The notes under the pieces: generated by a model
The model's input: the letters and a program-made list of their open reading frames with translations, nothing else
What the model was told of the DNA's origin: nothing
Databases searched by the model: none
In this document: piece after piece, positions 10,015 to 27,682 of the stretch
Position numbering within the stretch: position 1 is the first letter of the stretch
Layout: every line of letters begins with the position of its first letter
From: a virus
IMG/VR virus record: IMGVR_UViG_3300028375_000004
Location: 1 to 37,950 of that record
Strand: one strand, 5' to 3'
DNA length: 37,950 nucleotides
Program-made: the position numbers and the translations under genes

Positions 10015-10146
10015 CGCGTTTTCCTTTCGCGCTCCCCTTGTGAAACCGTGGCAGGCCGGGGGGAAAGTCCAGCTTTTCGGGGGCTACCCTATCCACAGTA
10101 TTTTAGTATCACGTAACGCAGATGATAAAAGTGCAAAGTTGCAAAG

Positions 10147-12326: not shown

Positions 12327-12788
12327 CTATTCCTCGCTGTTTGAATTGATCGGTTTTGTGGCAAATCGTTTTGGTGCAAAGCCTGCGTTTTCCATGATTG
12401 CCGCCGCCTCAGTTTTCGTGGCACGCTGGCGCTCAATCTGCGGTGCTGGTGCAGGCGGGTTGCGCTTCACCTCAGCCTTGCCGCGCATCATCTTTAAGAT
12501 GCCTAGAATGTGGCTTGGGTTTGGCTTCCGGCTTGGATTCTCATTCCGCCACTTTCGCAGGGCATATAAGATCTGCTCTTGCGTCCAGTCCTCCAGCGTG
12601 TCGGCCCAGTCTGCGAGGATGCCAGCCTTTACATTCTCCGGCGGGCGGTCCTTCCAGTATCCGTCAAGAATTACCTCAACGTCAAAAGCTATCCGCGCTC
12701 GGTGCGCGTCTTGCTCGTCCCGCGACATTGATCGCGTTAGTTGTGGCGTGGGCGCGGGTATCGCTGGCCTTGCTGTTATCTCGTTCAT
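12327..12788 (-). CDS. Helicase-loader-like replication protein
   Basis: This 153-residue protein has a helical core, ILADWADTLEDWTQEQILYALRKWRNENPSRKPNPSHILGILKMMRG. This resembles the 'WRdenp-rP..g.IL' block of phage helicase loaders and replisome organisers (lambda P-like role). The N-terminal 45 residues are Pro/Arg-rich. It follows the DUF1376 initiator, as P follows O. The ATG has GGAAGG nine bases upstream but lies 107 bases inside the initiator gene, an unusually long overlap. No Walker motif is present. Confidence 0.6.
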   Translation of the reverse strand: MNEITARPAIPAPTPQLTRSMSRDEQDAHRARIAFDVEVILDGYWKDRPPENVKAGILADWADTLEDWTQEQILYALRKWRNENPSRKPNPSHILGILKMMRGKAEVKRNPPAPAPQIERQRATKTEAAAIMENAGFAPKRFATKPINSNSEE

Positions 12789-13518
12789 CGTAATTACCTT
12801 CCATCAATTTCGTGAAATTTGCTTGTTTGCTTAGAAAGTCAAAGGTGCAGCTAAACCCGCCGCGCTCACCTCGGAGGAATGGCGATGCCTCGGCTTTGGC
12901 CAATGCGACCTCCCAGCCCTCGGCACCGCCTGCGTCCTTGAGCCTACCCCGAACCGCCGCGCGCCGCGCTGGTGTTAGCTTTTGCACAGAAGGCCAGCCC
13001 ACCCTTGCCGCCGTGGCGTTGTATGCCGATACAGCCTTTGCGATTTCATCAATGGCAGGGGGCGCAGATTTCAAGAGTACGTTAGTACTCTCTTTCTTTA
13101 ACTCTAGCTCTGGTTCTGGCTGGCATTGCTGGTGCATATGCTTGGGCAATGCGTCCGCATCAACACTATCCTTGTTTTTGCTAGGCTTTCTGTCCCATCG
13201 TGATTGAGCCGCTGCCTTGGCTTTCGATGACTTTTCGGTCGTTTGTTCGATGACTTTTGACGCCTTTTCGTTAAACAAACCATCTTTTGTCACAATGATT
13301 TTGCCCTCTGAAATTAGGTAATTTAGCGCCTTCACAAAGGATGCCTTGGACTTGGAGCCGCACACGCGATACAGCCTATCGTCGTCGCGTTCTATTGGCC
13401 CAGCCATTTCATACATGCGAGAAATCAGGGTAATGTAGACGCCTTTCTCAGCATCAGACAGCGCGGCAGTGCCAGCTAGCCAATCAGACGGATAGAACGG
13501 TATGTGGACAATGCTCAT
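12682..13518 (-). CDS. Replication initiator, DUF1376 domain (lambda O-like role)
   Basis: Residues 1-85 are a DUF1376 domain: HIPFYPSDWLAGTAALSDAEKGVYITLISRMYE and KALNYLISEGKII, a winged-helix found in phage replication proteins. The middle is charged and low-complexity. The C-terminal part has ARVGWPSVQKLTPARRAAVRGRL, GWEVALAKAEASPFLRG and CTFDFLSKQANFTKLMEGNY, a conserved tail seen in O-like initiators. It likely binds the phage origin and recruits the loader encoded just downstream. The last 35 residues overlap that gene in another frame. Confidence 0.8.
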   Translation of the reverse strand: MSIVHIPFYPSDWLAGTAALSDAEKGVYITLISRMYEMAGPIERDDDRLYRVCGSKSKASFVKALNYLISEGKIIVTKDGLFNEKASKVIEQTTEKSSKAKAAAQSRWDRKPSKNKDSVDADALPKHMHQQCQPEPELELKKESTNVLLKSAPPAIDEIAKAVSAYNATAARVGWPSVQKLTPARRAAVRGRLKDAGGAEGWEVALAKAEASPFLRGERGGFSCTFDFLSKQANFTKLMEGNYDERDNSKASDTRAHATTNAINVAGRARRAPSADSF

Positions 13519-13599
13519 TGCCTCAACCTAAATATTTGGAATTTTGATTTCATTTTTAGCCCTTCATGTGTGGGCCGTGCCTTGCGCATTATTGCGCGG

Positions 13600-13605
13600 T
13601 ATGAT
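13600..13605 (+). promoter_or_regulatory. Possible -10 element for the small RNA
   Basis: TATGAT on the plus strand matches the -10 consensus at five of six positions and would start an RNA near 13612. The upstream -35 is poor; CTTG at 13581-13584 is the nearest candidate and might suit a heat-shock-type sigma factor if a slightly later -10 is used. The call depends on the candidate RNA being real. Confidence 0.35.
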
Positions 13606-13609
13606 ACAT

Positions 13610-13695
13610 ATGGCACAGCGTCTTGACACCGCTACTCTACCTCCTCCCGAGGTAAACTTCAAGCCCTGCCGTGAGTTATCCGGCAGGGCTTTTTC
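13610..13695 (+). ncRNA. Candidate CCUCCUCCC-motif small RNA (cuckoo/CcsR-like)
   Basis: The plus strand of this gap, opposite all neighbouring genes, encodes a compact RNA. A 6-bp hairpin TACCTC/GAGGTA (13638-13654) presents CCTCCTCCC (13640-13648). It is followed by a perfect 11-bp terminator hairpin and a U-run. Hairpin with CCUCCUCCC plus terminator is the layout of alphaproteobacterial cuckoo/CcsR small RNAs, stress-induced in Rhodobacter. The motif is an anti-Shine-Dalgarno sequence and could pair with AGGAGG-type ribosome sites. About 84 nt are expected if transcription starts near 13612. It also resembles lambda OOP in position, transcribed away from the O-like gene. Confidence 0.65.
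13661..13695 (+). terminator. Rho-independent terminator
   Basis: AAGCCCTGCCG (13661-13671) pairs perfectly with CGGCAGGGCTT (13681-13691) around a 9-base loop, and the plus strand continues with T residues (TTTTT, 13689-13693). On the minus strand the stem is followed only by TTGAAGTTT, so it works best for rightward RNA, although it may also stop leftward transcription after the gene ending at 13694. Confidence 0.85.
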
Positions 13696-13876
13696 ATTCC
13701 CCAGCAATCTTACGCGGGAACATATGCGCAAGCTGGCCCGATGCGCGCAATTCCTGCAACTCATAGCGAACCCCAGAAAGCGGTATCCGGTACATGACCG
13801 CAATATCCTCAACGCCATATCCGGCGGCGATCTGCTCGCGCACAATGCAGGCGCGGGTGGCTGTGGTCATAGTCAT
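13694..13876 (-). CDS. Small HTH protein
   Basis: From the ATG overlapping the upstream stop (ATGA) this is 60 residues. It has an HTH pattern: CIVREQIAAGYGVEDIAVMYRIPLSGVRYELQELRASG, with a Gly turn and a recognition helix SGVRYELQEL. It is the last gene of the leftward recombination operon, and its stop abuts the terminator of the opposing small RNA. Probable DNA-binding regulator; the target is unknown. Confidence 0.65.
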   Translation of the reverse strand: MTMTTATRACIVREQIAAGYGVEDIAVMYRIPLSGVRYELQELRASGQLAHMFPRKIAGE

Positions 13877-15321: not shown

Positions 15322-16019
15322 CAATATGCCTCCCGATCATCCCAGACGCGCACGCCGTCGATGGTCTTTGCCTTGTGGTTGCGCTTCACATAGTCCTCGA
15401 TAAACGCGGTCATAGCATCGCGGTCCTGCGCAGCAATCCAATGCAACGCCTTCTTGTGGTCCTCGATCTCATACCGCGTAACCTTGCGCATCCCTTTGAC
15501 GTTATCGGCCTTTGCATCCCGCGCAGCCTTCTCTGCGTCCAGCGCCGCCTGCTGTGCCGCCTGAGCCTCACGTTGCGCCTCAAGGTTAGAAGCATCAGCC
15601 TTGCGCGACTTTTCCTCAGCCTCACGGCGCAGGCGGTTGGTTTCCTCCCATGCGGCCTTCTCGGAAGCGGCTTTTTCAGCAGCCAGCTTGCGCTTGAACA
15701 CGTCAACAGTCGCAACCAGGCATCCCTCAATGCGCCGTGCATCTTCTATTTCTGGTTTCCAGCGGTTGCGCTCGGCCACCAGAATATCGTTGAGCGGCTT
15801 GGTCGCGTCCTTCTGGCCCTTTTCCAGATCAAGACGCCATTGGCGCATGGTGCCTCGAAGGGCGTCCACCTCCTTCATTTGCGCTTCGTTCTCAACGGGT
15901 GCGCCGTCCGTCCAGTTTTCCGCCTCTTCGCGGTCGGTCGTATAAACCGCTGTGATGGTGTCAATCGGATCTGGCGAGAGATTATCGCCGATGACTGCGC
16001 GGGTGTTTGTATCGATCAT
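15321..16019 (-). CDS. Coiled-coil protein of the ERF module
   Basis: The 232-residue protein is dominated by a long, Ala/Glu/Lys/Arg-rich coiled coil (residues about 95-175, e.g. EAEEKSRKADASNLEAQREA) between an acidic N-terminal part (DREEAENWTDGAPVENEAQM) and a C-terminal domain VTRYEIEDHKKALHWIAAQ with KAKTIDGVRVWDD. This C-terminal domain is often seen beside ERF/RecT genes. It overlaps the ERF stop by TAATG. Probably a recombination accessory; exact activity unknown. Confidence 0.65.
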   Translation of the reverse strand: MIDTNTRAVIGDNLSPDPIDTITAVYTTDREEAENWTDGAPVENEAQMKEVDALRGTMRQWRLDLEKGQKDATKPLNDILVAERNRWKPEIEDARRIEGCLVATVDVFKRKLAAEKAASEKAAWEETNRLRREAEEKSRKADASNLEAQREAQAAQQAALDAEKAARDAKADNVKGMRKVTRYEIEDHKKALHWIAAQDRDAMTAFIEDYVKRNHKAKTIDGVRVWDDREAY

Positions 16020-26915: not shown

Positions 26916-27682
26916 TTGTTGCCTCCAAAGATTGCAGAGAAAAGGGTTTGCAGAGCGACCCACCAAGGGCGCTGCGGTGATGTTTGCTCAGTAAACGGAG
27001 CATCTGTGTCAGCGGGTGCGGGCATGATCGGCGGGACCGGATCAGGACGCTTTGCACTTACGCCACCGCCTGCCTCAATTGCAGCCAGAAACGCGCGGTA
27101 GTAGCCTGCAATAACCGCCCATTTGTCAGTGATGTTGACCGTGCGCCGCGCGCCTTCCAGATCGCCCTTGTCCAGATAATAGCGCAGGCCGTGGCCGCGA
27201 CCATTCCAGCGGCCATCAAGCAAGCCCTTGATCATCACGCGGGCGCTAATGGCCGGATCGAGCATGGCGTCCGGCGTTTTGACAAGATCCACGCCCGCAT
27301 CCGTGCTGCTGTCGCGGTAGTTGTCCAGCCAAGTCAACTGAACGTGGCCGCGCCCGTAATAGACATGGCCGTAGGGCTGCTGTGGCTTGGCATACTTTGC
27401 GACGTTGCTGTTAGGCCCACGCTTGCGCGCCAAAGCCTCTACGGCCCGCCGTGCGCCCGCGTCGGTGCTGGCAAAGCCTTCACGCACCGGAACCATGCGC
27501 CCGCCGACTTCATGGTAAGCTGTGGCAAGTGCATAAGCCAACGTGCTGGACCTGCCGTCACCGACCTGCTCAAACGCCGTCAGGATGCCCTCGATACCAT
27601 TCACCTGAGACTGCGAAAGGCGTGTGCCGAACACACCGCTTTCGCGCCTCCGAAGCGACTTGTAAAATGCTGCCTTGTCCAT
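26912..27682 (-). CDS. Endolysin, glycoside hydrolase family 19-like
   Basis: This 256-residue enzyme would cut peptidoglycan glycan strands. It has GIEGILTAFEQVGD, LAYALATAYHEVGGRMVPVREG with the catalytic-type Glu58 in the YHEVGG block, and YYGRGHVQLTWLDNY, a signature of GH19 chitinase-like lysins. A proline-rich linker (about 211-232) precedes a C-terminal WWVALQTLFSAIFGG that could contact the membrane. No signal peptide is seen, so it needs the holin. Confidence 0.85.
   Translation of the reverse strand: MDKAAFYKSLRRRESGVFGTRLSQSQVNGIEGILTAFEQVGDGRSSTLAYALATAYHEVGGRMVPVREGFASTDAGARRAVEALARKRGPNSNVAKYAKPQQPYGHVYYGRGHVQLTWLDNYRDSSTDAGVDLVKTPDAMLDPAISARVMIKGLLDGRWNGRGHGLRYYLDKGDLEGARRTVNITDKWAVIAGYYRAFLAAIEAGGGVSAKRPDPVPPIMPAPADTDAPFTEQTSPQRPWWVALQTLFSAIFGGNK

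Follow-up and report, generated by a model that had tools for sequence, protein, structure and literature searches.

The window, by which we mean the whole stretch of DNA analysed, comprises the 37,950 bases of the virus record, and its early and packaging region reads leftward. Genes for terminase, portal, capsid and tape measure proteins are present. The best relatives of the terminase belong to Rhizobium phages (69%), and the nearest relative of an O-like gene belongs to Sulfitobacter phage pCB2047-C; since these relatives come from alphaproteobacterial phages, an alphaproteobacterial host appears likely. The O-like, or primosomal, replication gene (DUF1376; minus strand, 12682-13518) was recognized through Pfam PF07120 (3.9e-13) and through primosomal and O-like PHROG families. 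Just upstream lies a 12-codon frame, MKSKFQIFRLRQ (minus strand, 13515-13553). The stop codon of this frame overlaps the start of the O-like gene (ATGA), and because of this overlap the O-like gene may be translated by coupling to it. No clear array of ori iterons was found in the O-like gene. Further upstream is gene A (minus strand, 13694-13876), delimited by its open reading frame and by alignment, which encodes a 60-aa three-helix protein. Its product has no Pfam or PHROG family match; in the AlphaFold model it forms three helices with a core pLDDT of 75-89, and it probably binds DNA. Elsewhere in the window, the Rfam int-alpA RNA (RF02996) matches at 10034-10099 on the minus strand (44.1 bits), upstream of a helicase-like gene, and it also matches in the related phage loci L021, L031 and L024.

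The 12-codon frame opens at the conserved start codon of a small module (13550-13694) that was delimited by alignments and BLAST breakpoints and that moves as a unit between phages. In the window, this module takes up exactly the interval from the leftward downstream frame, at its start codon, to the upstream gene, at its stop codon. The original prediction described a plus-strand small RNA ending in a perfect 11-bp terminator with a U-run, and such a terminator is indeed present: the stem AAGCCCTGCCG/CGGCAGGGCTT pairs 13661-13671 with 13681-13691 and is followed by TTTTT, the intrinsic terminator as a whole spanning 13661-13694 of the plus strand. No other hairpin with perfect arms of at least 10 and a T-run occurs on either strand of the 37,950-bp window. 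The 96-nt stretch at 13600-13695 folds at -33.9 kcal/mol (z = -4.0). Judging from the folds of 12 homologues, and with a 5' end placed by the promoter described below, the predicted product is an antisense RNA of ~78 nt with three hairpins (plus strand, 13617-13694); the homologous RNAs are predicted to be 72-81 nt long and to fold into hairpins at the 5' end and in the middle, followed by the terminator. The stop codon of gene A touches the terminator, and the gene and the RNA overlap by 1 nt in the window. Across the homologues the terminator stems covary, with GGCC/GGCC in place of GCCC/GGGC; four elements have wobbles in these stems, which read as G-U on the plus strand, with no C-A. The stems were aligned by hand and are thus given less weight than the covariation of the leader helix described below. 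Three of the distant members have only a weak T-run. Protein-coding readings of the same DNA were rejected. A small protein in the plus frame (ATG at 13610, ...LPPPEV...) is contradicted by a frameshifting base in L031 and by the lack of such a frame in type b, and tblastn gave no relative of it; the minus frame at 13564-13845 is broken as a gene by indels between homologues.

The motif that drew attention to this RNA, CCTCCTCCC at 13640-13648 of the plus strand, occurs once on the two strands of the window, where its dinucleotide composition predicts 0.14 occurrences. In the RNA, as CCUCCUCCC, it is carried by the middle hairpin, UACCUC-CUCCC-GAGGUA (plus strand, 13638-13654), identified from the sequence and its folds. 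The hairpin had been thought to present the motif, and this it does not do: the stem UACCUC/GAGGUA pairs C-C-U-C of CCUCCUCCC (unpaired probability 0.01 or less), four of the nine motif bases are paired, and only CUCCC lies in the loop. Across the family the position of the stem is kept and its sequence is replaced. The hairpin itself is stronger than shuffled segments (combined p of about 8e-10 over nine members), and its loops vary among CUCCC, UUCCC, AUAACC, AACCCA, CGACCAA and CCAUCCA. Conservation of the loop in related phages had been proposed as a check; the loop is not conserved, and the motif, kept in the window and in G2 copy a, is lost in 10 of the 12 homologous elements, with CCUUUUCCC in its place in the close relative L031 and unrelated loops elsewhere.

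These findings bear directly on the suggestion that the RNA belongs to the cuckoo/CcsR family. RNAs of the cuckoo/CcsR/alpha-r14 type are defined by several (2-4) hairpins, each with CCUCCUCCC in an unpaired loop (PMC10746234, PMC3927594, PMC4504443), and CcsR is co-transcribed with a DUF1127 gene (CcaF1) from an RpoH promoter (PMC10253847). The promoter of this family is stress-induced and of the RpoHI/RpoHII type. The resemblance of the phage RNA to this type (including NfeR1, of the alpha-r14 group) lies in the letters of CCUCCUCCC and a terminal hairpin. It has a single, half-paired copy of the motif, and the module family does not follow the cuckoo pattern of a constant motif on variable stems. 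DUF1127 (PF06568) occurs neither in the window nor in two related records. The putative plus-strand promoter looks sigma-70-like (TTG-N17-TA). A covariance-model search, also proposed beforehand, found no Rfam family that matches the element or its homologues at the curated threshold; the scores for suhB/mmgR (RF00519), anti-hemB (RF02837) and the Betaproteobacteria toxic sRNA (RF02278) were 17.6, 18.6 and 17.8 bits, against gathering thresholds of 41, 49.5 and 50, respectively. Nor was a copy found in cellular genomes that the phage could have acquired from, or could imitate in, its host: when 84,980 species genomes were scanned by pattern, the four matches were attributable to chance, and the covariance model R1 found only terminator matches in 385 alphaproteobacterial genomes, the best of them (28 bits) covering the terminator part alone. 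Taken as a whole, the module differs from cuckoo/CcsR/alpha-r14 RNAs in that its motif is single, half paired and unconserved, lies without a DUF1127 gene and is confined to phages, and an assignment to that family does not stand. With neither a match to a family model nor a conserved loop, two of the three observations named beforehand as refuting it have been made.

Perhaps the RNA could nonetheless act in trans as an anti-Shine-Dalgarno RNA of this type, derived from the host or imitating it. The exact CCUCCUCCC in the window and in G2 copy a, the sub-threshold likeness to the three Rfam families and an 8-nt match to the ribosome site of a NinB-like gene (minus strand, near 15329), where TCGGGAGG is complementary to CCUCCCGA of the plus-strand RNA, speak for this reading; matches of the latter kind to ribosome sites are common by chance. 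Set against the loss of the motif in most homologues, its partial pairing in a single hairpin, the missing DUF1127 gene and the missing host copy, this explanation appears very improbable, and an anti-Shine-Dalgarno role as a trait of the family is largely refuted by the comparison.

The closest homologue lies in the IMG/VR contigs G001/G002, which share a 148-bp block with the window at 93% identity between unrelated flanks. G002 (L014) contains two copies of the module (G002:C1:23928-24075 and 27209-27355, about 70-71% identical) at two operon junctions, before different genes, and only one of them has CCTCCTCCC. The copy without CCTCCTCCC adjoins a gene A that is 99% like that of the window; thus, the block was exchanged at one junction and gene A was retained. 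Homology to other phages breaks exactly at the module ends (13549 and 13694-13715 in the window), as though exchange of modules were concentrated at these points.

Further homologues, in L021/L025, L024, L031 and L035, came from pattern scans, and a profile search of 58 loci with a related exonuclease gene added L086, L088, L090 (at first only at E = 0.016), L092 and L097; in reversed-sequence controls of the latter search, no match fell below E = 2.3. Scanning 56 related loci for a generic promoter plus terminator proved too coarse, as it failed to pick up the window's own element. With the covariance model, 12 distinct elements, all from viral contigs, scored 69-111 bits, and the rest of the 68 phage loci scored 23 bits or less, mostly on terminators alone. 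All 12 elements have a common plan of about 150 bp. The module is absent from pCB2047-C, two Rhizobium phages, a Paracoccus phage and phiLM21, and from 14 prophage records judged by their names to be isolate-derived.

In every element with readable flanks, leftward genes adjoin the module on both sides. On the left it ends with the downstream gene's ribosome site and start codon, and on the right it ends at or slightly within the stop codon of the upstream gene (offsets from -11 to +52 nt), the plus-strand RNA overlapping that gene by 16-52 nt in some of the homologues. A primosomal, O-like or DnaD-like replication gene lies downstream in the window, L031, L086, L092 and L097. In L090 the replication gene is one gene further on, and L088 resembles L086 by eye; in the other elements, either another gene is inserted or the downstream gene is of unassigned identity, and the downstream genes of G2 copies a and b, L021 and L035 are not recognized as replication genes. 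The upstream genes differ between elements. A Lar-like restriction-alleviation gene follows the module in L090 (812-1261, minus strand). The module is probably a small, horizontally exchanged control unit of uncultured phages whose hosts are probably Alphaproteobacteria.

Two putative promoters face each other within the module. The rightward promoter (plus strand, 13582-13610), recognized from TTG and TA columns aligned in 12 elements, consists of a -35 box TTGCGC (13582-13587), a 17-bp spacer and a -10 box TACATA (13605-13610) preceded by TG, with a predicted start near 13617. Its boxes are weak matches in the window; across the homologues it appears as TTG, 17-18 bp and TA, with TG before the -10 box in most. 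The leftward promoter (minus strand, 13634-13662), likewise recognized from conserved columns, consists of TTGAAG (13662-13657), 17 bp and TAGAGT (13639-13634), with a predicted start near 13627. Its TTG, its N17 and the A2 and T6 of its -10 box are invariant in all 12 elements, the -10 box of type b being CAAGAT. This promoter, missed in the original prediction, overlaps the motif: the middle hairpin sits in its predicted spacer, and CCTCCTCCC is the part of that spacer abutting the leftward -10 box.

When columns were shuffled, the rightward score was reached in 1 of 2000 trials and the leftward score in none of 2000, and with seven lineages neither was reached (0/2000), figures to be read with the proviso that the distant members came from a profile search, which favours conserved columns; the leader covariation is unaffected by this choice. 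Separate scoring of the promoters against shuffled sequences gave combined p values of 1.5e-4 (rightward) and 5.9e-5 (leftward). The promoter claim rests on conservation; taken singly, promoter matches in the window do not exceed those in shuffled sequence. That last result is what would be expected if the locus were functionless, a terminator accompanied by chance promoter-like sequences; conservation across phages, covariation and module exchange all argue against such a reading, which is hardly credible. The -10 boxes are separated by 23 bp in the window (13611-13633). Given the established size of the RNA polymerase footprint, two polymerases are unlikely to sit on sites this close, and simultaneous occupancy of the two promoters is thus unlikely. 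No conserved operator or regulator for the module was identified, and LexA-type sites (GTTCN7GTTC/GAACN7GAAC) were not found within it.

The leftward transcript would begin with a structured leader. Its main element is the helix P1 (minus strand, 13574-13619), in which GCUGUGCC (13619-13612) pairs with GGCACGGC (13581-13574), enclosing the hairpin GCGCA-AUAA-UGCGC. The leaders were aligned by MAFFT without structure, and RNAalifold, unaided, then returned P1 as the one consensus helix, with compensatory changes in five of seven pairs. At eight pairs, 89.6% of the cells are paired, a value reached by none of 500 shuffles, and the covariation score is 0.617 compared with 0.244 or less when the helix is slid. 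Wobbles in P1 are of the leftward strand (9 G-U and 0 C-A cells) and would be mismatches on the plus strand. The leftward leader therefore looks like a functional RNA, which in turn implies a leftward transcript starting upstream of 13619. P1 is followed by a hairpin, GCCC-N9-GGGC (minus strand, 13559-13575; from sequence and fold), that lies over the ribosome site, its 3' arm containing the Shine-Dalgarno-like AAGGGC before the start codon. Because the leader wobbles favour the minus strand and the terminator wobbles the plus strand, both strands look like functional RNA.

It might be argued that the leftward promoter and its structured leader alone matter and that the hairpin at the right is a boundary terminator, with little or no plus-strand RNA being made. 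The leftward promoter is indeed the better conserved of the two (12 of 12 with N17) and scores better in the window, and the leader helix has the strongest covariation. However, the rightward promoter is conserved too, the T-run and the G-U wobbles of the terminator favour the plus strand, and the middle hairpin is kept despite lying in the spacer of the leftward promoter, which that promoter would leave untranscribed. A leftward-only function is for these reasons rather unlikely. Comparison of the homologues establishes the conservation and location of the module, its two promoter signatures, its terminator and its leader helix.

The placement of the plus-strand RNA recalls OOP of phage lambda, a resemblance already pointed out in the original prediction and one that, unlike the cuckoo assignment, is well supported: in 12 elements, a predicted antisense RNA of the size of OOP has its own promoter and terminator, in the window beside the O-like gene. 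OOP is a 77-nt antisense RNA made from pO next to O (PMC12197685, PMC3985674), and pO opposes transcription into O (PMC3985674, PMC5869508). Like OOP, the predicted phage RNA is short and terminated (~78 nt), lies opposite an early operon, starts beside a replication gene and ends at the 3' end of a small upstream gene, so that it is antisense to the region between that gene and the O-like gene; a length of about 77 nt (predicted range, 72-81 nt), an own promoter and an intrinsic terminator are likewise shared. In lambda, the upstream gene whose 3' end is overlapped encodes CII, whereas here it is variable and not recognizably CII. Moreover, the module has a second, local leftward promoter facing that of the RNA, and its leader RNA is structured. 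In the lambda cII-O region, model R1 gives at most 0.6 bits, and there is no homology in sequence or structure. In its presumed working, the module has its nearest known counterpart in lambda pO/OOP, and the comparison is supported as an analogy, without homology.

The simplest form of this analogy would be an OOP-type antisense RNA with the one rightward promoter, the pairing of which with the polycistronic leftward mRNA would mark a site of RNase III cleavage between the upstream and replication genes. Size, place and orientation are those of lambda OOP, and, in homologues whose upstream gene could be placed, the RNA reaches or overlaps that gene's 3' end with its own. Such a scheme leaves out the conserved opposing promoter and the leader helix, the overlap with the upstream gene is just 1 nt in the window, and upstream genes vary; we regard it as unlikely.

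Opposed promoters of a comparable kind are known from other systems. In the helD/pps alarm of B. subtilis, two promoters stand face to face and the antisense promoter restrains the sense promoter, which is induced by rifampicin (PMC12802891). There, as in the module, opposed TTG...CAA promoters of the sigma-70 type lie upstream of one gene. The -10 boxes are 45-55 bp apart in helD/pps versus 23 bp in the window, and the module differs further in having a strongly terminated antisense RNA, a phage replication gene and no known inducer. Convergent phage promoters with transcriptional interference are represented by pR/pL of coliphage 186, as cited in PMC12802891. The coliphage promoters form a lysis-lysogeny switch and are more widely spaced, whereas the module lies inside an early operon and produces a short terminated RNA. 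The mobile regulatory cassettes of T4-type phages (PeSL) combine a promoter with a stem-loop. They resemble the module as promoter-and-terminator units exchanged between phages; the module, by contrast, has two opposed promoters, includes a start codon and is not known from T4-like phages.

The reading towards which we lean, with guarded confidence, is a mobile module that sets an OOP-like antisense RNA, together with the promoter of that RNA, against the promoter of a replication gene. Two sigma-70-type promoters would face each other so closely that polymerase could hardly occupy both. From the leftward promoter, transcription would pass through a structured leader, whose final hairpin covers the ribosome site, into the downstream gene (in the window, the O-like gene). 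The ~78-nt RNA would arise from the rightward promoter and be halted by the strong terminator precisely where the upstream gene has its stop codon. Together, the RNA and the rightward promoter would restrain the replication gene by transcriptional interference (occlusion or collision) with the leftward promoter, and an OOP-like second restraint might come from a duplex of the RNA with read-through mRNA from the upstream gene. We infer from the comparison that both promoters fire, and likewise their relative strength and the direction and outcome of the control.

A bolder version, decidedly unlikely, would make the module a self-contained switch. With promoters so near each other that a polymerase bound at one shuts out a second, the antisense promoter might hold the replication gene almost silent, and a change in the state of the host RNA polymerase, as in phage take-over or transcription stress, would flip the balance; the leader helix and the ribosome-site hairpin would then constitute a second, RNA-level check, and the alarm logic of helD/pps would be packed into a traded cassette of 150 bp.

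We present here a new, hitherto unlisted phage module, exchangeable between phages, in which opposed promoters come together with an OOP-like RNA and a structured leader. A literature search, which covered few subscription papers and is therefore weak evidence of absence, brought up no account of such a module. An anti-Shine-Dalgarno motif can be incidental when it is seen in a single copy of an RNA, which calls for caution. The module is small enough for a reporter, in which close convergent promoters could be tested directly as a switch of phage replication. If the favoured reading is true, uncultured phages outside the lambdoid group possess a counterpart of the OOP-like arrangement, without sequence homology, and this counterpart would add an opposing promoter and a structured leader to the OOP-like layout.
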